A stretch of DNA of 42,936 nucleotides, from positions 1 through 42,936 of the forward strand of contig JADHWM010000010.1 of the NCBI GenBank assembly GCA_016783485.1, read 5' to 3'. Of the stretch, positions 8,977-42,681 are shown one piece after another; the stretch's first letter is position 1, and every line of letters starts with the position of its first letter. The position numbers and the translations under genes were made by a program. The stretch comes from Candidatus Bathyarchaeota archaeon. Its GTDB lineage: Archaea; Thermoproteota; Bathyarchaeia; TCS64. The notes beneath the pieces were generated by a model. It was not told the DNA's origin and searched no databases. It saw only the letters and a list, made by a program, of their open reading frames with translations.

Positions 8977-10527
8977 TCACCCGGAGACATGATTTTCCTT
9001 GGAGAGGAGCCTGTTCATCCCTTTTAAGATTGCGTCCACGCTCGCCATCACTGTGTCCCCGCTCACCCCGTTCGCGGTCACGAATTTTTCTCCCCGCTTG
9101 AGGTGAACGGTCACATCGGCTACCGCATCGGTGCCTCCGGTTATCGCCTTCATTGTGAACTTTTCTAATGTGATTTCGGCGAATCCGTTCACGACGTTTC
9201 TGATGGCGTTGATCGCGGAGTCTATGGGGCCGTTGCCCACCCCCGAACCCGTGTGCTCCTTGCCGTCCACGATGAGGGTGACGGAGGCCGTCGGGGTGAT
9301 GGTGTTCCCGCTGACCACGAGGAGCTGCTGGAGCTTGACATAGTCCTCGTCCTTGAGGTCCATTACGTGTTTCGCTATAGCGTAAAGGTCCGCATCCGTC
9401 ACCGCTTTGCCAGAGTCCCCGAGCTTCTTCACCTCGGCCGCAATAGCCTTCAGCTGATCCCTGGAGGGGTCGAGACCCAGGTCCTCGATCATGTTGGAGA
9501 TCCCGTGCCTCCCAGCGTGCTTCCCGGCAACCAGCCTGCTCCTTTTCCCGACAAACTCGGGGCTCAGGATCTCGTAGTTGCCCGAGTGGCTCAGGACCCC
9601 GTGGACGTGGATTCCGGCCTCGTGGGAGAACGCATTATCCCCGATGATGGGAGTGGAAGAGGGCATATATATGCCGCTGAGCCTTTCCACGAGGGCCGAC
9701 GTATCGGCGATCTTCGTGGTGTCGATCCCTGTCTCTATCTCGTACTGGGCTGCGAGGCAGACCACCACCTCCTCGAGGGAGGTGTTCCCCGCTCTCTCCC
9801 CTAAGCCGTTGACGCAGACGTGGGCCTGCTCTGCGCCCGCCTCTATGGCTGCAAGTGTGTTGGCGGTGGCCTGTCCAAGGTCGTTGTGGGCGTGGGCGCT
9901 GAGGGGGACCCGGGTTGAGGCCTTGAGTTCCTTGAAGAACTCGTATGTCATCCGGGGGGTCATGACGCCGACGGTGTCCGGAATGTTCAGCATCTCAGCA
10001 CCAGCGTCCTCCGCTGCTTTGCAGATCTCGATGAGGTAGTCCATGTCGGTGCGGGTGGCGTCTTGGGGGCTGTACTCGACGAAGACGCCGTGCTCTTTGG
10101 CGTACTCGATGCCCTCAACCGTCTGCTTAAGGACTTCTTCTCTCGTGGTCTTCATCATCGTCTCGATGTGGAGGTCGCTGGTCGAGATGAATATGTGAAT
10201 GTAGGGCACATCGCATTTGAGGGCCTTGTCGATGTCCTCCCTGAGGGGCCTAGCGAGGGCCACAATCTGGGCGTCGAGGCCGAGGGCGGCTATCATCTTG
10301 ACGGACTCTGTCTCCCCCTCGGAGGTGATGGGGAATCCCGCCTCGATCCTGGGGACCCTCAACTCGTCGAGCTTCTGTGCTATCAGAATCTTCTCGTCGA
10401 TGGTATATGTGACCCCGGGCATCTGTTCCCCGTCCCTGAGGGTGGTGTCGAATATCCACACTTTGTCAGGGGCGTGACGTTCCAGATCGGACTTGTACTG
10501 GCTCAGATAGAACTTTCCTTTGCTCAT
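8977..10527 (-). CDS. leuA: 2-isopropylmalate synthase (or citramalate synthase)
   Basis: Acetyl-CoA-dependent condensing enzyme of the HMG-CoA lyase-like TIM barrel family, about 516 residues. FDTTLRDGEQMPGV is the catalytic Arg-Asp motif. HAHNDLGQATANTLAAIEAG and NGLGERAGNTSLEEV hold the metal and substrate residues, and SHEAGIHVHG is the linker region. The C-terminal ~130 residues form the LeuA dimer regulatory domain (from about TPTASVTLIVDG), which binds leucine or isoleucine in the family. The start at ATG 10527 has GAGGTG six bases upstream; ATG 10530 is directly adjacent. Substrate choice between 2-oxoisovalerate and pyruvate cannot be decided by eye; gene order with leuC, leuD and leuB supports leucine. 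Confidence 0.92.
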   Translation of the reverse strand: MSKGKFYLSQYKSDLERHAPDKVWIFDTTLRDGEQMPGVTYTIDEKILIAQKLDELRVPRIEAGFPITSEGETESVKMIAALGLDAQIVALARPLREDIDKALKCDVPYIHIFISTSDLHIETMMKTTREEVLKQTVEGIEYAKEHGVFVEYSPQDATRTDMDYLIEICKAAEDAGAEMLNIPDTVGVMTPRMTYEFFKELKASTRVPLSAHAHNDLGQATANTLAAIEAGAEQAHVCVNGLGERAGNTSLEEVVVCLAAQYEIETGIDTTKIADTSALVERLSGIYMPSSTPIIGDNAFSHEAGIHVHGVLSHSGNYEILSPEFVGKRSRLVAGKHAGRHGISNMIEDLGLDPSRDQLKAIAAEVKKLGDSGKAVTDADLYAIAKHVMDLKDEDYVKLQQLLVVSGNTITPTASVTLIVDGKEHTGSGVGNGPIDSAINAIRNVVNGFAEITLEKFTMKAITGGTDAVADVTVHLKRGEKFVTANGVSGDTVMASVDAILKGMNRLLSKENHVSG

Positions 10528-10679
10528 CATGGACACCTCGAATTGACCAAAAAGTCCTCTTCTCACGCTAATAACCGTTGTGAGCAAGGAATGTTACGCA
10601 TGCTGGCTAAATCTAAATTGTGGACGATTTGAAGAAAAACCAAGAAGATTCTATTAAATTGACATCGATAATACGTAGG

Positions 10680-31999: not shown

Positions 32000-32884
32000 A
32001 TGACGAAGATCGCGGTCATCGGGCACATAGCGATCGACAAGGTCATTGATGAGACTGGGCAGAGGGTCCAGCTCGGGGGCCCACCGGCTTACACTGCTCT
32101 CTCCTTCGGGCTTTTAGGAGATAGAATCCATGCGGTTTCCAAGGTTGGAGATGATATCTCAAAGAATTTCCTTCGGCAGCTAACGGACCTCGGTATGGAT
32201 GCCGGTAATATGGTTGTAGAGGGGGCGGAGACCACCAGGTTCGTCCTCGACTATACCCAGGAAATAAGAGTATTAGGTGTAGAGAGTGTCTGCGAAAAGA
32301 TCTGCTCTAATGACATCGAGGACCTTCCCGATGCCGCGCTGATAACGCCTATAATCGGGGAGCTCACAGACTGCGCAGTTGAAGCCATCCAGTCGGACGT
32401 CTTGGCTTTAGATCCCCAAGGGTTTCTGAGGAGGCGCCTGGAGGATGGTTCGATTCAGCTCCAGCCTTGGCGTGATAGAGAGTTAATGGGCAGGTTGGAC
32501 GTGTTGAAAGCCTCCGCTGATGAGGTGAAGCTCATCACCGGGGACTCCGACCCACGGAGAGGGACTGAGAAGATCAGGAAGTTCGGGGCGAGTGTGGCGG
32601 TCACCACTTTGGGTCAGAACGGTTCGCTTGTCGCCATGGGAGGAAGGCCATCCCAGGTGCCGGCTTACGATAGCGATGTGCGGGACTCCACGGGAGCTGG
32701 GGATGTCTTCCTCGGCGCTTTCATGTCGGAATACCTCCGGGGCGATGACCCAGTTTGGTGCGCCTGCGTGGGATCGGCTATGGCTTCTCGGGTCATTGAA
32801 ACTAATGGAGCAAGGATAGATTCTACGAAGAGGGATGTAATTAGCCGCGCAGAAGAGCTGCTCGACTGTGTCGTGAGAGTCTAG
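32000..32884 (+). CDS. PfkB-family carbohydrate/nucleoside kinase
   Basis: Ribokinase/PfkB-family kinase of about 294 residues. The N-terminal IGHIAIDKVID, the two-glycine LGGPPAYTAL signature and the C-terminal DSTGAGDVFLGAF motif (anion hole and catalytic Asp) are all present. The substrate could be a sugar, nucleoside or another alcohol; the family does not allow a choice by eye. ATG 32000 fits the family start, with no Shine-Dalgarno sequence and an AT-rich element about 26-30 bases upstream, suggesting a leaderless message. Its TAG stop shares the tetranucleotide CTAG with the stop of the convergent gene. Confidence 0.88.
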   Translation: MTKIAVIGHIAIDKVIDETGQRVQLGGPPAYTALSFGLLGDRIHAVSKVGDDISKNFLRQLTDLGMDAGNMVVEGAETTRFVLDYTQEIRVLGVESVCEKICSNDIEDLPDAALITPIIGELTDCAVEAIQSDVLALDPQGFLRRRLEDGSIQLQPWRDRELMGRLDVLKASADEVKLITGDSDPRRGTEKIRKFGASVAVTTLGQNGSLVAMGGRPSQVPAYDSDVRDSTGAGDVFLGAFMSEYLRGDDPVWCACVGSAMASRVIETNGARIDSTKRDVISRAEELLDCVVRV

Positions 32885-33237
32885 GAGAACCTGCGTCTGG
32901 CGATAAAGTAGACTCCGAGGGCGAAGAGCAGGTTGACGCTCCAGGTTCCGAAGATGGATATCACCAAGTTACCAGAGCCGCCTCCAGCTGCTAGGACGTC
33001 TCCTTGAGCTTCCGCAGCATCTCCTGAAAACGTTCTATCTGACTCGGTTGCTGGGGCAGATGCACCCTCAGTTGGAGTCTCCGCATGCTCCGGTCCGGGT
33101 GCCTTCACTAGCTCAGAGTCTACTGCGGACTCGCTGAACATGGGAGGGGCCAACTGGCTGGGGACCGCTGCTACCAAGAGGTAGCCCAGGGATATCGCGA
33201 GCACTGCGTAGACTAGAACCTTGTTCTCCATCGTCAT
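32881..33237 (-). CDS. Small surface protein with two membrane segments
   Basis: A 118-residue protein of unknown family. It has an N-terminal hydrophobic segment (VLVYAVLAISLGYLLVAA, about residues 7-24), a roughly 60-residue Pro/Ala/Glu/Ser/Thr-rich linker and a Gly-rich GGGSGN. A C-terminal hydrophobic helix (about 92-113) follows, and it ends in ARRRFS. The design, a signal or anchor, then a flexible linker, then a transmembrane helix followed by arginines, resembles archaeal CTERM-type sorting tails, but I see none of the defined tripeptide motifs. It lies downstream of the membrane-anchored regulator at 33341-33781 and may be co-regulated with it. Confidence 0.75.
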   Translation of the reverse strand: MTMENKVLVYAVLAISLGYLLVAAVPSQLAPPMFSESAVDSELVKAPGPEHAETPTEGASAPATESDRTFSGDAAEAQGDVLAAGGGSGNLVISIFGTWSVNLLFALGVYFIARRRFS

Positions 33238-33832: not shown

Positions 33833-34678
33833 TCAGCGGAGCATTCCGATGAGGGCTAGGGCGGCACCCAGGACCTCCTCGGTTCTCACGGTCACGCTCC
33901 CAGGGTCCGGGATCACGTTCGCCGTGAAGTCGAAGACCTCGCTCATTTCCAAACCGTCCCTTGATAGTATCTCTTGGAGCCTGGCTCTGGGTGAGCTGAA
34001 AGCGATCAAGGCACTCTTGGCCTCAGCAATTCGGGCTCCTAACTCAGGTTCTAGGTCCCTGAAAGGAGGGGCAAGCCTTGAAGCCGCCAGCTTTAGATCG
34101 AAGTCGCCCCTCGATGCGAACTTTCCCAGTCCCCCGCCCGTTAGGTGGATGCCGTACCCCCAATAAGATTTTACGTCTCTTTTTTTGGCGAATCTCCCGG
34201 TGAGCATTGGTTGGACGCTGGTGATTCGTACAGTCGTCCGCCCGCCAATGGAGGGCCCAGGCCCTGTCACTCTGGCAGGAGTCTCGACGCCTACGTCGAC
34301 GAGATATTCTCCGTTATCCTCCGAGAGCACGACTCCCTCCCTGAACTCACCTGTCTCGAGTCTGCTAGAGTTCCGCTCCAAGGGGTGGTGGGGGGTCCTG
34401 AGGGGCGGGAGGACACCGACGTATCTCAGCTCCTCCATCATTCCAAATAGGTTCTTCCGCAGATACTGGGGAGTCTCAATATAGTTTAAGATGAGCCGGA
34501 GTAGCCTGGACTCGTCCGGGACGTCCCGGTAAACATAGATATCCTCGACCCTGTGGATGGCCGCAATCCTGGCGATCTGGCCGATGACAACAGTCTTCTC
34601 CCTCTGGTGGGGAACCTCGGAGACGAGGGAAGAGGGGATAGCTATTGAAAGCTTGTAGTCCCTCCGATTCGAAGTCAT
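33833..34678 (-). CDS. SPOUT-class RNA methyltransferase (COG2106)
   Basis: A 281-residue member of the COG2106/DUF171 family, predicted trefoil-knot (SPOUT) RNA methyltransferases with an inserted OB-like domain. The N-terminal segment (LSIAIPSSLVSEVPHQREKT, then IARIAAIHRVEDIYVYRD) and LRLILNYIETPQYLRKNLF are family-typical. The knot region toward the C terminus includes SKSALIAFSSPR-like packing, then DFTANVIPDPGSVTVRTEEV and GAALALIGML. Eukaryotic relatives (SPOUT1/C9orf114) act in RNA biology. It overlaps the unknown gene at 34675-35124 by four bases. Confidence 0.88.
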   Translation of the reverse strand: MTSNRRDYKLSIAIPSSLVSEVPHQREKTVVIGQIARIAAIHRVEDIYVYRDVPDESRLLRLILNYIETPQYLRKNLFGMMEELRYVGVLPPLRTPHHPLERNSSRLETGEFREGVVLSEDNGEYLVDVGVETPARVTGPGPSIGGRTTVRITSVQPMLTGRFAKKRDVKSYWGYGIHLTGGGLGKFASRGDFDLKLAASRLAPPFRDLEPELGARIAEAKSALIAFSSPRARLQEILSRDGLEMSEVFDFTANVIPDPGSVTVRTEEVLGAALALIGMLR

Positions 34679-35124
34679 TGGGGTGCCCTTCCTTCTCTCA
34701 ATCTAGGCCAAGATGTCCAGCCGGTCTTAACGAAACGCTCCCTCTCCTCGAGATTCTCGTGCACCCATGCGAGGAATGAGTTGAAGCTCCGCATCGAAGC
34801 GACTATGGTCATATCTCCGATCCCGAGGCGGACGAGGCTCTTAAGGAATTCCCTCTCAGCCAGCTCCTGGGTCGGGCCCACAATCTTGACACCCTCCACG
34901 GTGTAGCCCTCCTCGATCAACGCCTCCCTGGCCTTCGAGAGGATATACCCGGTGCAGATATGGATGGGCTCAACTTGGGAGACGCGAAGCCTCTCCATAC
35001 CCTCCGCCACCACCTTGAGAGACTCGACGAGATACGCTTTAGTCTTGAATACACCGCCCTGGAACAGATCCAGGGATATCTCTCCAGAGTGGGATTCCCC
35101 CGTCTCGACTCGGCGCATCACCAC
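34675..35124 (-). CDS. Conserved-looking protein of unknown function
   Basis: A 149-residue soluble protein that I cannot assign. It has an alternating pattern with a strand ISLDLFQGGVFKTKAYLVES, a possible nucleotide or RNase-H-like segment IHICTGYILSKAREALIEEG, then KIVGPTQELAEREFLKSLVR and a C-terminal amphipathic part ending WTSWPRLREG. The frame starts with GTG 35124, and an ATG at 35118 is equally possible. It is translationally coupled (ATGA-type overlap) to the SPOUT methyltransferase, which suggests a role in the same RNA process; this is inference. Confidence 0.65.
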   Translation of the reverse strand: MVMRRVETGESHSGEISLDLFQGGVFKTKAYLVESLKVVAEGMERLRVSQVEPIHICTGYILSKAREALIEEGYTVEGVKIVGPTQELAEREFLKSLVRLGIGDMTIVASMRSFNSFLAWVHENLEERERFVKTGWTSWPRLREGRAPQ

Positions 35125-36836: not shown

Positions 36837-38501
36837 TCAGCCGCCCAGGGATTCAATGGCTTTCTCGATCTTCTTGATCGCGAGGCCTCTCCTGCGGATC
36901 CTGTCCCTCTTGCGCCTCTCGTAGTCTCTCCTGGAGACCCGTCGGGTTCTCAGCCTCACCTCTAGGTTCCGAAGGTCTGAAGCGATCCGGGTGAACTCCC
37001 CCTCCGCCTGCTTAATCTCCTTTAAGGGCTCGGAGAGCTCGGGCTCATCAGCGAGTTCTCTCTCTAACTGCTTAAGGGAGTCGGCGAGTTTGCTCACGCC
37101 TCGACTGTGCTCAGCCGCAAGCCTCTCGTATTGATCCTTCTCTATCTTCCCCTCCTCGAGCTCCTCCTCGAGGGACTCTAGCGCCTTAAGGTGGCCGATC
37201 CTTTCGCGCTGCTTCTCGATGAACTCTTTGAGGGTAGGAACCTCGGCTTCGAGGGTCACCTCCACCCTGGCGGGCTTTTCCCGTCGCCTCAGGAAGACTA
37301 TAGCAGCGACGACCAACCCGAACGCCGCGACGATGGCGATTGGCCTTAGGGAAGGCATGATGGATCCGGATGGGATCTCGGCCTCGATGGCGGGCCTCTC
37401 CGATTGGAGCGTGGCACCATACGTGAGGCGGACGACATCGCTCTCAACCCTGCTGACTGTCGCCTCGAGGCCCCGGATGAAATGAGGCAGCTCGATGTTG
37501 GGGTAAGAGAGGTGAGATGAACCTCCTGCAGTCGAGACGTGCTCTCCGTTCTCCGTGGTGTACGTTACACTGAAGACCCATCTGTCTCCGGGCATAATGG
37601 GAGACCGAGGGAAAACAGCCACCTCTTTCGACTCATCTGACTCCGTGGCTATGGTCTCTAGTGTGCCAACCCCGTCTCTCGCCTTGATGTTGGATGCGTC
37701 TGGGGGGAGCTCGAGAGGGAACCCGAAGAGGATGGGTCCCTTGTTGGTGAGAGAGTAGGAGTCTTCGACGACTAGGATGCTTGACTTGACCGTGATGCTC
37801 CGAGACACATCATCTACTACCAACAGAAGCTCGTCGTCCGTCGAATGGGTGTACAGGATGCTTGCGTAAACCCCGGAGTCAGCGACGATATTCTCCCCCA
37901 GATATATCACATTCCAGTGATCGCCAACCTCGATTTGGGTCATGTTTATCGGGGAGATGACTTGGTCGAAAATGGCGCCGGGAGGTAGCTCCACCTCCAG
38001 CTGATACCGGGAGATATTGTAATCGATGACGGGGAAAACGGGCAAGATAGCAGCATAGGCAGTGCTAGTACCGCTTACGCTATCCAGAGAGAGATATGAT
38101 GCCCTAAGTGTCAGGGACGTTCCGGCTCTCAAGGTTATCGGGACGGTGAACTCGATGCGGGAGCCCTGGATTCCCTGAATATCAAGGCCCGACGCATCTA
38201 CCTGCCTCCAGCTATCAAACTCCCACACCTCGAAGATCGACCTCTCAGGGGTGAGGGTGTCAGAGAACCCCATCCAGAAATCTGTGACAATGGCTTCAGA
38301 GCCCTCGGGGGCGGAGAGGGTGAATGTATCATTCAGGAAAACGATGCCTCCTCTGACGATCTTCACACTCCTATCTATATCGACGAAAAGTTGCTCCGTT
38401 TCACCGCTGGCCATGTAAGCATAGGACGACAGCATTGAGGCACAGAGCAGAGCCATGAGAGTCAGCGTTTTAACCTTGGATATCTTCATCGAGGACATCA
38501 T
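36837..38501 (-). CDS. Signal-anchored protein with ribophorin-I-like repeats
   Basis: A protein of about 554 residues with a signal peptide (TLTLMALLCASMLSSYAYMA) and a long beta-rich extracytoplasmic part of about 350 residues. A single transmembrane helix follows (IAIVAAFGLVVAAIVFLRRR), then about 145 charged, coiled-coil and Arg-rich cytoplasmic residues (from TLKEFIEKQRERIGHL). Two similar segments stand out in the outer part: VDIDRSVKIVRGGIVFLNDT near the start and VDDVSRSITVKSSILVVEDS in the middle, each leading into a strand and a 'NKGP/PEGS' turn. This resembles the duplicated layout of ribophorin I/Ost1 of the oligosaccharyltransferase; the likeness is by eye only. The start is one of clustered ATGs (38501, 38498, 38489), about 25-30 bases after a TATA-like element. 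Confidence 0.7.
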   Translation of the reverse strand: MMSSMKISKVKTLTLMALLCASMLSSYAYMASGETEQLFVDIDRSVKIVRGGIVFLNDTFTLSAPEGSEAIVTDFWMGFSDTLTPERSIFEVWEFDSWRQVDASGLDIQGIQGSRIEFTVPITLRAGTSLTLRASYLSLDSVSGTSTAYAAILPVFPVIDYNISRYQLEVELPPGAIFDQVISPINMTQIEVGDHWNVIYLGENIVADSGVYASILYTHSTDDELLLVVDDVSRSITVKSSILVVEDSYSLTNKGPILFGFPLELPPDASNIKARDGVGTLETIATESDESKEVAVFPRSPIMPGDRWVFSVTYTTENGEHVSTAGGSSHLSYPNIELPHFIRGLEATVSRVESDVVRLTYGATLQSERPAIEAEIPSGSIMPSLRPIAIVAAFGLVVAAIVFLRRREKPARVEVTLEAEVPTLKEFIEKQRERIGHLKALESLEEELEEGKIEKDQYERLAAEHSRGVSKLADSLKQLERELADEPELSEPLKEIKQAEGEFTRIASDLRNLEVRLRTRRVSRRDYERRKRDRIRRRGLAIKKIEKAIESLGG

Positions 38502-38525
38502 ACCAGAGTAATGACACATATCCCA

Positions 38526-38535
38526 GATTTAAAAA
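38526..38535. promoter_or_regulatory. Divergent TATA element
   Basis: ATTTAAAAAG sits in the divergent gap between the ribophorin-like gene and gcvPA. Its distance of about 25-35 bases to the minus-strand ATG cluster suits a leaderless message there. For gcvPA it would give a leader of about 65 bases. Confidence 0.4.
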
Positions 38536-38626
38536 GTGGGGCATGGTCCAGCCTGAACACCGTGATAAGCTAACATTATTAAAGAGGATAGGAAAGATGA
38601 ATCGTGTTCAACAGGAGAAGCGAATA

Positions 38627-40009
38627 ATGAACAAGCCTCATCCGTATATGCCCAACAGCGTCCCCGACATCAAGGAGAAGATGATAGAGGAGATGGGGAT
38701 CAAGTCCATCGACGACCTCTACGTCGATATCCCAGTGGGCCTCAGATTCGAAAGAGAGCTGGATGTACCCGGACCATTCACCGAGGCCGAGGTGAAGAAG
38801 CACGTCTCGGGCCTCCTAGAGAGGAACTGGGGTTTTGCGGCCCCTCCCTTCCTCGGGGGAGGTGTCTGGCCCCACTACGTCCCGGCTGTAGTCGACGAGA
38901 TCGTTCACAGGGCCGAGTTCCTTACCAGCTACACCCCTTACCAGCCCGAGATCAGCCAGGGTATACTCCAGTCTATCTTCGAGTACCAAAGCCTGATCTG
39001 CGAGCTCGTGGGCATGGATGTCGCCAACGCCTCGATGTATGACTGGGCCACCGCCCTCGGAGAAGCCTCCCGCATGGCTTGCCGCCTCACACGGAGGAGC
39101 AGGGTTCTGGTGCCCAGCATAATCAGCCCCCGCAGACTCTCCGTCCTCAGGTCATACACTGAGCCTGTGGACATCGAGATAACCCAGGTGGATTACGATA
39201 AGACAAGCGGTCAGCTTGACCTAGAAGACCTCAAAGAGAAGATCGGGAGCGATTCCGCATCCGTCTATATCGAGAATCCCTCCTACCTTGGCTTCGTCGA
39301 GGAAGGAGTCGAGGCGATAGCCGAGATTGCCCATGACTCCAAGGCCCTTTTCGTGGTCGGCGTGGACCCCATCTCCCTGGGCTTAATTAAGCCTCCAGGC
39401 GAGTACGGGGCCGATATAGTCATCGGCGAGGGTCAGCCCCTTGGCAATCACATGAATTTCGGGGGTCCCCTTCTCGGTATGTTTGCCTGCAAGAGTGATA
39501 CCAAGGTCATCAGGCAGATGCCGGGGAGGCTAATCGGTGTGACCCAGACCCTCGAGGATGATAGACGGGCCTTCACGATGACCCTCCAGACAAGGGAGCA
39601 GCACATCAGGAGAGAGAAGGCGACTAGCAACATCTGCTCCAACCAGGCTCTCAATGCCCTAGCGAGCGCCGTGTACCTATCCCTAATGGGGCCCCAGGGG
39701 ATCAAGGACCTGAGCGAGCTCGTGTCGGGAAGGGCACACTACGCCATAAGGCGACTGGGGGAGCTGCCCGGGGTCAGGGCTCCGGTGTTCAGCAGCTTCC
39801 ACTTTAAGGAGTTCACAGTCCAGTTCAGGGATAAGACAGTCGAGGAGGTCAACCAGAGCCTCCTCGATAACAGGCTCCACGGTGGTAAGTCGATTGTAGG
39901 AGAGTTCCCCGATCTTGGGGAAACGGCGCTTTTCTGTGTCACAGAGAGCCATACGAAGGAGGATATTGACCGATTGGCATACGCCCTCGAGGAGGCACTG
40001 GAGGGATGA
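38627..40009 (+). CDS. gcvPA: Glycine dehydrogenase (decarboxylating) subunit 1
   Basis: N-terminal half of the two-subunit P-protein of the glycine cleavage system, about 460 residues. HPYMPNSVPDIKEKMIEEMG at the start, YTPYQPEISQGILQSIFEYQ and NASMYDWATALGEASRMACR are signatures; YLSLMGPQGIKDLSEL follows later. ATG 38627 (MNKPHPYMPN) fits the family start and has GGAG upstream; ATGs at 38597 and 38543 are in frame. It is followed directly by gcvPB. The T, H and L proteins are not in this window. The pathway supplies one-carbon units or, reversed, makes glycine. Confidence 0.95.
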   Translation: MNKPHPYMPNSVPDIKEKMIEEMGIKSIDDLYVDIPVGLRFERELDVPGPFTEAEVKKHVSGLLERNWGFAAPPFLGGGVWPHYVPAVVDEIVHRAEFLTSYTPYQPEISQGILQSIFEYQSLICELVGMDVANASMYDWATALGEASRMACRLTRRSRVLVPSIISPRRLSVLRSYTEPVDIEITQVDYDKTSGQLDLEDLKEKIGSDSASVYIENPSYLGFVEEGVEAIAEIAHDSKALFVVGVDPISLGLIKPPGEYGADIVIGEGQPLGNHMNFGGPLLGMFACKSDTKVIRQMPGRLIGVTQTLEDDRRAFTMTLQTREQHIRREKATSNICSNQALNALASAVYLSLMGPQGIKDLSELVSGRAHYAIRRLGELPGVRAPVFSSFHFKEFTVQFRDKTVEEVNQSLLDNRLHGGKSIVGEFPDLGETALFCVTESHTKEDIDRLAYALEEALEG

Positions 40010-40011
40010 CC

Positions 40012-41541
40012 ATGAGGAAGTTCAGGCAGGCTCAATGGGAGGAGCCAATCATCTTCGAGCTTAGCCGAGAGGACCGGGTAGGCTTCAGCGTCCCTGCCTT
40101 GGAGCCCGAGATAGCAGATGCCATGGACGACATCGCGGGTCTAGTCCCCAACGGGATGCTGAGAGAGAAGCCCCCTGGGCTCCCTGAGGTCTCGGAGCTG
40201 GAGGTCCTCCGCCACTTCATCCACTTATCCCAGATGAACTACGGCGTGAACTCAGGCAGATTCTATCCCCTCGGCAGCTGCACCATGAAATACAACCCAG
40301 TCATCAACGAGGTCCTCGCAGGCCACCCTAAGGTCACGGGGATCCACCCCGACCAGGATGAGGCGTCTATCCAGGGGCTCCTCGCGATGCTCCACGAGCT
40401 AAAGCAGGGATATCTCGAGATAACGGGGATGGACGACGCGAGTCTCCAGCCCGCAGCGGGAGCCCACGGAGAGTACCTGGGAGTACTCTTGATAAGAGCA
40501 TACCACGCAGACAGGGGCGACCTGGAAGGACGGACAGAGATCATCATCCCCGACTCGGCCCATGGCACCAATCCAGCGACAGCGATCATGGCGGGATTCA
40601 AAACCATCGAGGTTCCATCTAACGAGGACGGGGGCGTCGATCTGGAGGCCCTCGCGAGCGTCGCTGGCCCCCAGACCGCGGGTCTGATGCTCACCAACCC
40701 CAACACCCTGGGGATCTTCGACAGCAACATCTCCAAGATAGCTGGAATCGTCCACGACGTGGGGGGGCTCATGTACTACGACGGTGCGAACCTCAACGCC
40801 ATCATGGGGAAGTGCCGCCCAGGGGACATGGGATTCGACGTGGTCCACGTCAATCTTCACAAGACCTTCAGCACACCCCACGGCGGTGGGGGCCCAGGAT
40901 CCGGGCCGGTTGGCGTAAAGTCGTTCCTGGCGGACTATCTGCCAGTACCCGACATCGTCGAGAGCGCTGGAGTCTACAGCCTTGACTGGGATCGATCCAA
41001 GACCGTCGGGAAGATCCACGGATACCATGGGAACGTGGGCCCCATGCTCAGAGCATATACCTACATGGTAACCATGGGTGGGGAGGGCCTCAAGGAGGCC
41101 TCGGAGCTATCGGTGCTCAACTCGAATTACATCGCTGCGAAGCTCAAGGACGTCAAGGGTTATTCCCTGCCTTTCGCAGAGGGGAAGCCCAGGATGCACG
41201 AGGCTGTGCTGAGCGCCGAGAAGATGAGCGAGGAGACCGGTGTACGGGCCCTCAACGTCTCTAAGAAGCTCCTTGACTACGGGCTCCACGCTCCCACGAC
41301 CTACTTCCCCCTCATCGTCCCCGAGGCCCTCATGATAGAGCCCACGGAGACGGAGCCCGTGGAGGTCCTCGACGAGTTCATCGAGGCGATGAAGGAGATC
41401 TCGGATTTGGCATACTCTGATCCGGACGACGTCCTCGGCGCCCCGAGGATGACCGTGGTAGGGAAGCTCGACGAGGCGCGTGCGGCCCACCCGAGGACCA
41501 TCTGCCTGAGCTGGAAGACCTATTGTAGGATGATCCCCTAG
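40012..41541 (+). CDS. gcvPB: Glycine dehydrogenase (decarboxylating) subunit 2
   Basis: PLP-binding half of the glycine cleavage P-protein, about 509 residues. FYPLGSCTMKYNPVINE, PAAGAHGEYLGVLLIRAYH and PDSAHGTNPATAIMAGFK lead to the Lys-bearing VNLHKTFSTPHGGGGPGSG that binds PLP. ATG 40012 is preferred because GGAGG precedes it by seven bases; ATG 40006 overlaps the gcvPA stop. A T-rich stretch (41551-41559) after the stop is a probable terminator. Confidence 0.96.
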   Translation: MRKFRQAQWEEPIIFELSREDRVGFSVPALEPEIADAMDDIAGLVPNGMLREKPPGLPEVSELEVLRHFIHLSQMNYGVNSGRFYPLGSCTMKYNPVINEVLAGHPKVTGIHPDQDEASIQGLLAMLHELKQGYLEITGMDDASLQPAAGAHGEYLGVLLIRAYHADRGDLEGRTEIIIPDSAHGTNPATAIMAGFKTIEVPSNEDGGVDLEALASVAGPQTAGLMLTNPNTLGIFDSNISKIAGIVHDVGGLMYYDGANLNAIMGKCRPGDMGFDVVHVNLHKTFSTPHGGGGPGSGPVGVKSFLADYLPVPDIVESAGVYSLDWDRSKTVGKIHGYHGNVGPMLRAYTYMVTMGGEGLKEASELSVLNSNYIAAKLKDVKGYSLPFAEGKPRMHEAVLSAEKMSEETGVRALNVSKKLLDYGLHAPTTYFPLIVPEALMIEPTETEPVEVLDEFIEAMKEISDLAYSDPDDVLGAPRMTVVGKLDEARAAHPRTICLSWKTYCRMIP

Positions 41542-41592
41542 CAGGGGCATCTTTTTATTTCATTGATGCGATTGAGGGCTGAAGGTAGCCAA

Positions 41593-42108
41593 ATGTTGAG
41601 CGCGATCGGAAGTCTCGTATCCATGAACATCGATTTCCTGCAGCAGCCCCCCTGGGCCACATTGTTCATCCTGGTGCTCACTACAGCGATCAACTTGGTG
41701 ATGAGCTACGCCAACAAGAGGTCTATGGATCTTGACGCCTACCGGAAGATGATGGTGGAATCCGCGAAAGCTCGCAAGGAGGTTATGGAGGCAATGAAGT
41801 CGGGGAACCAGAGGAGGATCTCCAAGGCGCAGAACAGGCAGAGCGAGCTCATGAAGGAGCAGAATAAAGCGTCCATGGGGAGGATGAAGCTCACAATGTA
41901 CGTCTTTATCCCGTTCATACTCATCTGGCAGGTCCTCAACGGGTTCTTCGGACAGACCATTATCGCCTATATGCCATTCAACGCTCCCTTCTTCCCTGAG
42001 GAGCTCACCATCGGAAACTGGTATATCCTATGCTCCATCTCAGTGAACATCGTCCTCTCCAGGATTATAGGGCTCACCTTCGAGATCGACCCTGATGAAA
42101 GCGAATAA
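41593..42108 (+). CDS. DUF106 membrane protein (Emc3/YidC-like)
   Basis: A 171-residue member of DUF106, the archaeal branch of the Oxa1/YidC/Emc3/TMCO1 insertase superfamily that helps insert membrane proteins. Three hydrophobic segments are seen: about 18-38 (PWATLFILVLTTAINLVMSY), about 95-118 (LTMYVFIPFILIWQVLNGFF) and about 140-162 (WYILCSISVNIVLSRIIGL). A cytosolic coiled coil rich in Lys and Gln (AKARKEVMEAMKSGNQRRIS) lies between the first two. ATG 41593 has GAAGGTAG upstream. The neighbourhood with cytidylate kinase and eL14 is the usual archaeal one, normally downstream of secY and adk. Confidence 0.93.
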   Translation: MLSAIGSLVSMNIDFLQQPPWATLFILVLTTAINLVMSYANKRSMDLDAYRKMMVESAKARKEVMEAMKSGNQRRISKAQNRQSELMKEQNKASMGRMKLTMYVFIPFILIWQVLNGFFGQTIIAYMPFNAPFFPEELTIGNWYILCSISVNIVLSRIIGLTFEIDPDESE

Positions 42109-42120
42109 CAGTGCTTCAAT

Positions 42121-42681
42121 ATGACGGGGAAACCCAAAAAATTCGAAGAACTCGTGATAACGGTCAGCGGATATCATGGCTCCGGGCGGTCAACTCACGC
42201 GATAAGGCTCGCCGAAACCTTCGGCCTGAGATACGTCTCATCGGGAACCATCTTCAGGCAGTTAGCCCAGGAAAGAGGCCTCAGCCTCGAGGAGATGTCC
42301 AAGCTCACCGAAGAGGACTCTGAGATCGACAGGATGATCGACGAGAGAGCAAAGGAGGAGTCCAAGAAGCCGGGGGTCGTGATCGACGCCACCCTTGCGG
42401 GGTGGATGGCCGAAGACCCTGACATACGCATATTCCTGTTGACCTCCTTCGAGGAGAGGATCAGGAGGATTGCGGACAGGGAGGATACCTCGTTCGAGGA
42501 AGCCGAGAAGGAGACCGTGGCGAGGGAGGAGAGCGAGAAAGAGAGGTTCCGTATATACTACAACGTCAAAATAGAGGACCTCTCGATATACGATGCGGTC
42601 CTCAACACCGAGCTCTTCGAGGAGGATGCGACGGCGCGAATCCTTAAAAGCGTTGTCGAGGAATACTGCTCGGCGAGGTAA
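42121..42681 (+). CDS. cmk: Cytidylate kinase
   Basis: Archaeal-type cytidylate kinase of 186 residues, phosphorylating CMP or dCMP with ATP. The P-loop is VSGYHGSGRSTHAIRLAETF at about residues 15-34. YVSSGTIFRQLAQERGLSLE binds the nucleotide monophosphate, VVIDATLAGWM follows, and the lid arginines are in SFEERIRRIADRED and SEKERFRIYYN. It lies 12 bases after the DUF106 gene and six before eL14. No Shine-Dalgarno sequence is obvious, so translation may be coupled. Confidence 0.94.
   Translation: MTGKPKKFEELVITVSGYHGSGRSTHAIRLAETFGLRYVSSGTIFRQLAQERGLSLEEMSKLTEEDSEIDRMIDERAKEESKKPGVVIDATLAGWMAEDPDIRIFLLTSFEERIRRIADREDTSFEEAEKETVAREESEKERFRIYYNVKIEDLSIYDAVLNTELFEEDATARILKSVVEEYCSAR

Follow-up and report, generated by a model that had tools for sequence, protein, structure and literature searches.

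The stretch of DNA analysed here, referred to below as the window, comprises 42,936 nucleotides of a Bathyarchaeota MAG (2.13 Mb, 116 contigs, 70% complete). On its minus strand, at 36837..38501, the window contains an open reading frame of 554 aa (ATG 38501, stop 36837), described in this work as an OST1/ribophorin I homolog. The reading frame is a real, conserved gene. Within the genus, the encoded protein is 89, 61 and 43% identical to its counterparts, the closest of which is encoded in JAOZHO010000015.1 of Candidatus Bathyarchaeota archaeon isolate QDN_3 (89%), and it is matched over its full length throughout the class, so that its conservation lies far above chance. The frame remains open upstream to another ATG at 38519, and in an alignment of 29 homologs the N-terminal methionine of most of them falls on residue 5 of the protein (nt 38489). 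The short divergent gap between OST1 and gcvPA holds a sole TATA-like element, CTTTTTAAAT (38536-38527, minus strand), which on the letters of the DNA is a possible promoter. Since its position fits a transcript start near 38505, a start at 38501 or 38489 is likelier than one at 38519, and the protein is probably 550-554 aa long.

The divergent neighbours of OST1 are gcvPA and gcvPB, encoding glycine dehydrogenase subunits 1 and 2 (38543..41541, plus strand). They are followed by a gene for an EMC3/TMCO1-like (DUF106) membrane insertase (41563..42108, plus strand; PF01956, 9e-17). We know of no functional reason that would connect glycine dehydrogenase with the oligosaccharyltransferase (OST). 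The adjacency of gcvPA to OST1 recurs in other genera, as well as in family f27, and this recurrence supports the orthology of the OST1 genes, as a marker and not as a part of the OST machinery. The insertase gene lies about 3 kb from OST1 and keeps its position in four other genomes examined. The divergent layout as a whole, with OST1 on one side and gcvPA-gcvPB-EMC3(DUF106)-cmk on the other (36837-42681), is conserved in several genera. Downstream of OST1 are a small ferredoxin gene and a gene for a PGI/PMI-type isomerase.

The anatomy of the protein was examined with an AlphaFold2 model (mean pLDDT 86). The signal peptide (residues about 5-34; 38400..38489, minus strand) is modelled as a hydrophobic helix at residues 6-28, with low confidence after it; it is found in nearly all OST1 homologs in the alignment and would be cleaved. 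Two extracytoplasmic beta domains follow. The first (residues 36-222; 37836..38396, minus strand) is all-beta in the model, with a pLDDT of about 87-96, and it aligns with residues 1-255 of human RPN1 in a profile search. The second (residues 224-375; 37377..37832, minus strand), also delimited in the model, carries the core of the Ribophorin_I match (PF04597, positions 259-337), and its G279 is invariant among the homologs. A preliminary description, made from the DNA letters, had noticed two similar extracytoplasmic segments, FVDIDRSVKIVRGGIVFLNDTFTL (about residues 39-62) and VVDDVSRSITVKSSILVVEDSYSL (about residues 228-251), and this observation is confirmed at the scale of whole domains. 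A profile-profile alignment of domain 1 with domain 2 (taken here as residues 224-372) extends over 167 columns with a score of 85.8 (P 7.8e-16), against a best score of 11.0 in 40 column-shuffled control runs. Judged by their sequence profiles, the two beta domains are a real duplication and are homologous to each other. A single TM helix (residues 382-406; 37284..37358, minus strand), followed by RRREK, is given by the model and the sequence, in agreement with the one helix described before. The cytoplasmic tail of about 137 aa is likewise as highly charged as had been stated, with 33 K+R (20 Arg) and 32 D+E, and its net charge is nearly neutral. The long coiled coil that had been expected there is not what the model gives. 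The tail instead forms a four-helix bundle (residues 422-553; 36843..37238, minus strand), consistent with a match to 8WHN, whose helices at 422-449, 455-483, 487-518 and 524-553 have 28-32 residues each.

As a single protein, the homolog matches PF04597 with 37.3 bits (E 2.3e-9), above the curated cut-off of 25 bits, and the same family is matched by 26 of the 29 archaeal homologs. A profile of these 29 homologs (A1) was searched against all PDB sequences. It reaches human RPN1 (6s7o_E) with an E-value of 6.5e-32, spanning residues 1-255 and 276-607, the cytosolic domain of Lokiarchaeal OST1 (8whn_A, 'Ribophorin 1 superfamily protein') with 2.3e-17, and yeast Ost1 with 8.3e-14, while the coiled-coil background begins at 0.022. 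Restricted to the luminal part, the profile still retrieves human RPN1 (7.9e-24) and yeast Ost1 (2e-13), with every other chain at E 0.3 or above. In a Foldseek search against the PDB, the eight leading hits are without exception human or yeast OST1 chains, from 9.2e-26 (human 8b6l_O) to 1.3e-15. The TM-scores of these matches are modest (0.41-0.52), probably owing to a different arrangement of the domains about the hinge between them. The features of OST1 membership found in the protein include the profile match, the two luminal beta domains, the single TM helix and the fold, and the Bathyarchaeal protein is almost certainly a genuine ribophorin I/OST1 homolog. The early proposal of a ribophorin-I-like protein has therefore held. 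Its layout of signal, duplicated beta domain and TM helix, as in Ost1, is reproduced by the model and by the full-length match to RPN1, and the structural comparison on which the proposal had been made to depend is headed by OST1.

The distribution of the gene was counted with the luminal profile, since tail-only matches in ORFs of 250-290 aa from some families (1e-8 to 1e-4), which have no luminal match, look like coiled-coil noise (CdvA-like). By this recount, 117 of the 299 genomes sampled in the phylum, belonging to 64 of 129 genera, carry OST1, as do 48 of 56 in the class; for most of the class the match takes in the full model, tail included. It is absent from all 14 genomes of genera g2 and g6 in family f1 (G004, G008, G011, G013, G015, G017, G019-G026), several of which are 93-94% complete. 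Most of these still have STT3 and the OSTC-like gene treated below, and OST1 has been lost in these two genera of the family to which the source genome itself belongs. In family f27 the protein is only 415-434 aa long (415-429 aa in L135, L136, L137 and L138), with both luminal domains and the TM helix, a short Pro/Lys/Arg-rich tail and no bundle, and its gene is divergent from gcvPA in three of four loci examined. The f27 proteins had been considered as one-domain forms, which was rejected when the alignment showed that it is the tail that is missing. Homologs without the first luminal domain do exist (L021:1477-2694 and L026:1477-2691, about 405 aa), and these retain the signal peptide, domain 2, the TM helix and the tail. 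With g2 and g6 lacking OST1 and f27 lacking the tail, neither OST1 nor its tail is indispensable. As a separate observation, residues 347-384 of L026, in the OST1 tail, match the Pfam family GvpG (gas vesicle protein G) with 36.5 bits against a cut-off of 30.6, which is probably a false positive of helical composition.

In mammals, ribophorin I is among the subunits by which OST-A is anchored to the ribosome-translocon. A profile of the tail only (A2) reaches 8WHN with an E-value of 2.2e-18 across the entire domain. A coiled-coil artefact was considered here, as A2 also draws tropomyosin and keratin, yet these come with E-values of at least 0.003, the best unrelated coiled coil standing at 0.003. 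The 8WHN entry is the crystallised OST1 cytosolic domain of Ca. Prometheoarchaeum syntrophicum MK-D1 (WP_147663064.1); this tail and the human tail bind ribosomes, and the MK-D1 tail binds human ribosomes (Carilo 2024, PMC11417166). The MK-D1 protein shares with the present one the family, the domain order, an alignment over the whole length of the tail and the four helices. It differs in belonging to Asgard archaea, in being accompanied by TRAP subunits, and in that ribosome binding was measured there, whereas it is a prediction here. Comparison of the Bathyarchaeal tail alone with the human RPN1 tail yields a weak sequence signal (hhalign probability 5%, P 0.0078), so that the link to the human tail rests on the full-length match, on 8WHN and on the topology. 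The tail is the counterpart of the cytosolic four-helix bundle of metazoan RPN1 and Lokiarchaeal OST1. The statement that it would be unlike eukaryotic Ost1 thus stands with respect to yeast, whose Ost1 has no bundle, and falls with respect to metazoan RPN1, given the 8WHN match. The contact with ribosomes that had been suggested for it is better founded than first thought, because the tail has these counterparts.

Positions 434 and 455 of the tail are conserved as Arg/Lys, and so are 511, 518, 521, 524, 532, 536 and 537. The latter group surrounds the helix 3-4 turn and is kept basic across the class, and the tails of many members carry a net charge of +8 to +15. By analogy with its Lokiarchaeal and human counterparts, the Bathyarchaeal tail would dock on the ribosome. 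An alternative is that the protein is a true OST1 subunit whose bundle serves dimerisation, membrane organisation or a non-ribosomal partner, ribosome docking then being an invention of Asgard archaea and eukaryotes on a pre-existing bundle. Such a role would suit the balance of 33 K+R against 32 D+E in this tail, its non-significant similarity to the human tail on its own and the survival of the entire family f27 without a bundle, but binding to human ribosomes is documented for its Lokiarchaeal homolog (PMC11417166), and both the class-conserved basic residues at the helix 3-4 turn and the positive charge of many tails argue against it; we regard it as improbable.

The search for partner subunits, which had been recommended for STT3/AglB and Ost3-like genes, found both in the genome. 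STT3/AglB is encoded at G000:C4, in the region of 9450-10634 (PF02516, 4.9e-47, plus STT3-PglB_core). A search of the genome with PF04756 gave three weak matches, among them a thioredoxin-like match in a 76-codon frame on C105 and one on C13 that was set aside as a stand-alone thioredoxin-like ORF and not OST3. The protein at G000:C80:3738-4136 (= L068:1501-1899, minus strand) has 133 aa, consists of TM helices only and contains the motif GGGIYNQINKPP. It scores under the curated cut-off of PF04756 as a single protein, and 21 of 23 relatives match this family. A profile of the 23 reaches human OSTC/DC2 with 1.7e-9 and MAGT1 with 3.8e-6, and in Foldseek ranks 1-5 are OSTC or MAGT1, with weak E-values of 0.02-0.1 and a probability of 1.00. 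It has the same TM domain as human OSTC/DC2 and MAGT1/TUSC3 (PF04756) and is without a thioredoxin domain, like OSTC and unlike MAGT1/Ost3/Ost6. It is thus a member of the OST3/6 family without thioredoxin, and OSTC/DC2 is its nearest match. Of 61 genomes, 45 have a relative of it; the gene adjoins STT3 in G044 and G053, and the two are no more than about 4-9 kb apart in seven more class genomes. DC2 is an OST-A subunit connecting to Sec61 (review PMC7226087). With an RPN1-type bundle and a DC2-like protein both present, the genome has both of the mammalian OST-A links to the translocon. For DAD1/Ost2 and Ost5/TMEM258 no match over the cut-off was obtained in 41 genomes, and PF05251 matches at E 0.003-0.09, the same level as controls, were discounted.

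An OST1-STT3 operon was considered and dismissed, STT3 being on another contig here and distant where both share one contig. It could be supposed that the OST1 homolog no longer works with STT3, or did not yet do so, and is a chaperone-like or S-layer-associated membrane protein that was later recruited into the eukaryotic OST. The gene is indeed unlinked to STT3, which is more widespread among the relatives (54 of 61) than OST1 (37 of 61), and loss of OST1 with STT3 retained does occur; preservation of the OST1 fold with its complete domain order, and the presence of a second OST subunit family, the OSTC-like one, in most of the same genomes, nevertheless make such a role quite unlikely. Finally, the similarity to ribophorin might be fortuitous, the protein being a coiled-coil-bearing surface protein of an unrelated Ig-like or M1-peptidase-like kind. 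This reading is scarcely credible and was ruled out: the Foldseek list does continue after OST1, from 1.6e-7, with GPI transamidase, inter-alpha-inhibitor and M1 aminopeptidases (M1 N-terminal domains, integrins and a GPI transamidase subunit fall between 1e-7 and 1e-4), but the M1-peptidase, integrin and GPI transamidase matches trail OST1 by at least 8 orders of magnitude, the luminal-only sequence profile is specific for OST1/RPN1, and among non-noise chains the tail matches OST1 only.

In all likelihood, then, the product of the gene serves an archaeal OST as its OST1/ribophorin I subunit, with the architecture observed. In the mechanism that we propose for this subunit, the beta domains and the TM helix would pack extracellularly against STT3 and keep hold of the acceptor or the glycosylated chain. 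The bundle would dock next to SecY on the large subunit of the ribosome, and this would couple N-glycosylation with co-translational translocation in the manner of mammalian OST-A. Such a ribosome-coupled, OST-A-like function in the source organism is a serious possibility, if not quite a likely one. Tentatively, and with somewhat less than even confidence, we suggest that a minimal OST-A-like complex, made of STT3, a bundle-bearing ribophorin I and a thioredoxin-less OSTC/DC2-like subunit, may act co-translationally at the plasma membrane in Bathyarchaeia and other Thermoproteota.

In comparison with human RPN1 of OST-A and OST-B (6S7O, 8B6L), the archaeal protein shares the duplicated luminal domains, the TM helix and the four-helix cytosolic bundle, in the same order. 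The differences lie in the membrane, which is that of the ER in human cells and the plasma membrane in the archaeon, in the divergent sequence of the tail, and in the far larger human complex, whose DAD1 and Ost5 were not found in the archaeal set. Yeast Ost1 (6EZN, 6C26) shares the luminal domains and the TM helix (2e-13) and differs in having no cytoplasmic bundle; archaeal family f27 independently has the same short form.

The archaeal history of ribophorin I has so far been told mostly as an Asgard story. OST1 and OST3 have been reported from Asgard archaea, judging by the citing passages in PMC10307638 and PMC8813620, and Eme 2023 names Asgard only for OST1 (PMC10307638), whereas one sentence in Carilo 2024 (PMC11417166) places OST1 and OST3/6 in TACK and Asgard archaea. 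OST1 in TACK is thus already known, and to this the present work adds the tail, the OSTC-like partner and the variants. Among the openly accessible papers searched, none was found on Bathyarchaeal OST1, the TACK tail, the nature of the OSTC-like partner or the variants. The present findings correct a statement that ribophorin occurs in mammals only (PMC8993221), as well as a report in which no archaeal candidates for non-catalytic OST subunits looked promising (PMC4973528). That OST1 occurs in much of a second archaeal phylum, with its tail complete and accompanied by an OSTC-like protein, moves the likely origin of ribosome coupling deeper and suggests that co-translational glycosylation is older than Asgard archaea. 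If the minimal OST-A-like complex is real, ribosome-coupled N-glycosylation would predate the Asgard archaea, and the tail-less Ost1 of the yeast type and the thioredoxin-bearing Ost3/6 would be later variations. By comparing close relatives in which the tail, one domain or the whole protein is missing, the contribution of each part can be tested.

Elsewhere in the window, two genes encode conserved small proteins of 149 aa (34675-35124) and 118 aa (32881-33237), with no Pfam match over the cut-off. They keep their order beside a gene for a SPOUT-type putative RNA methyltransferase and a gene for a winged-helix membrane protein.
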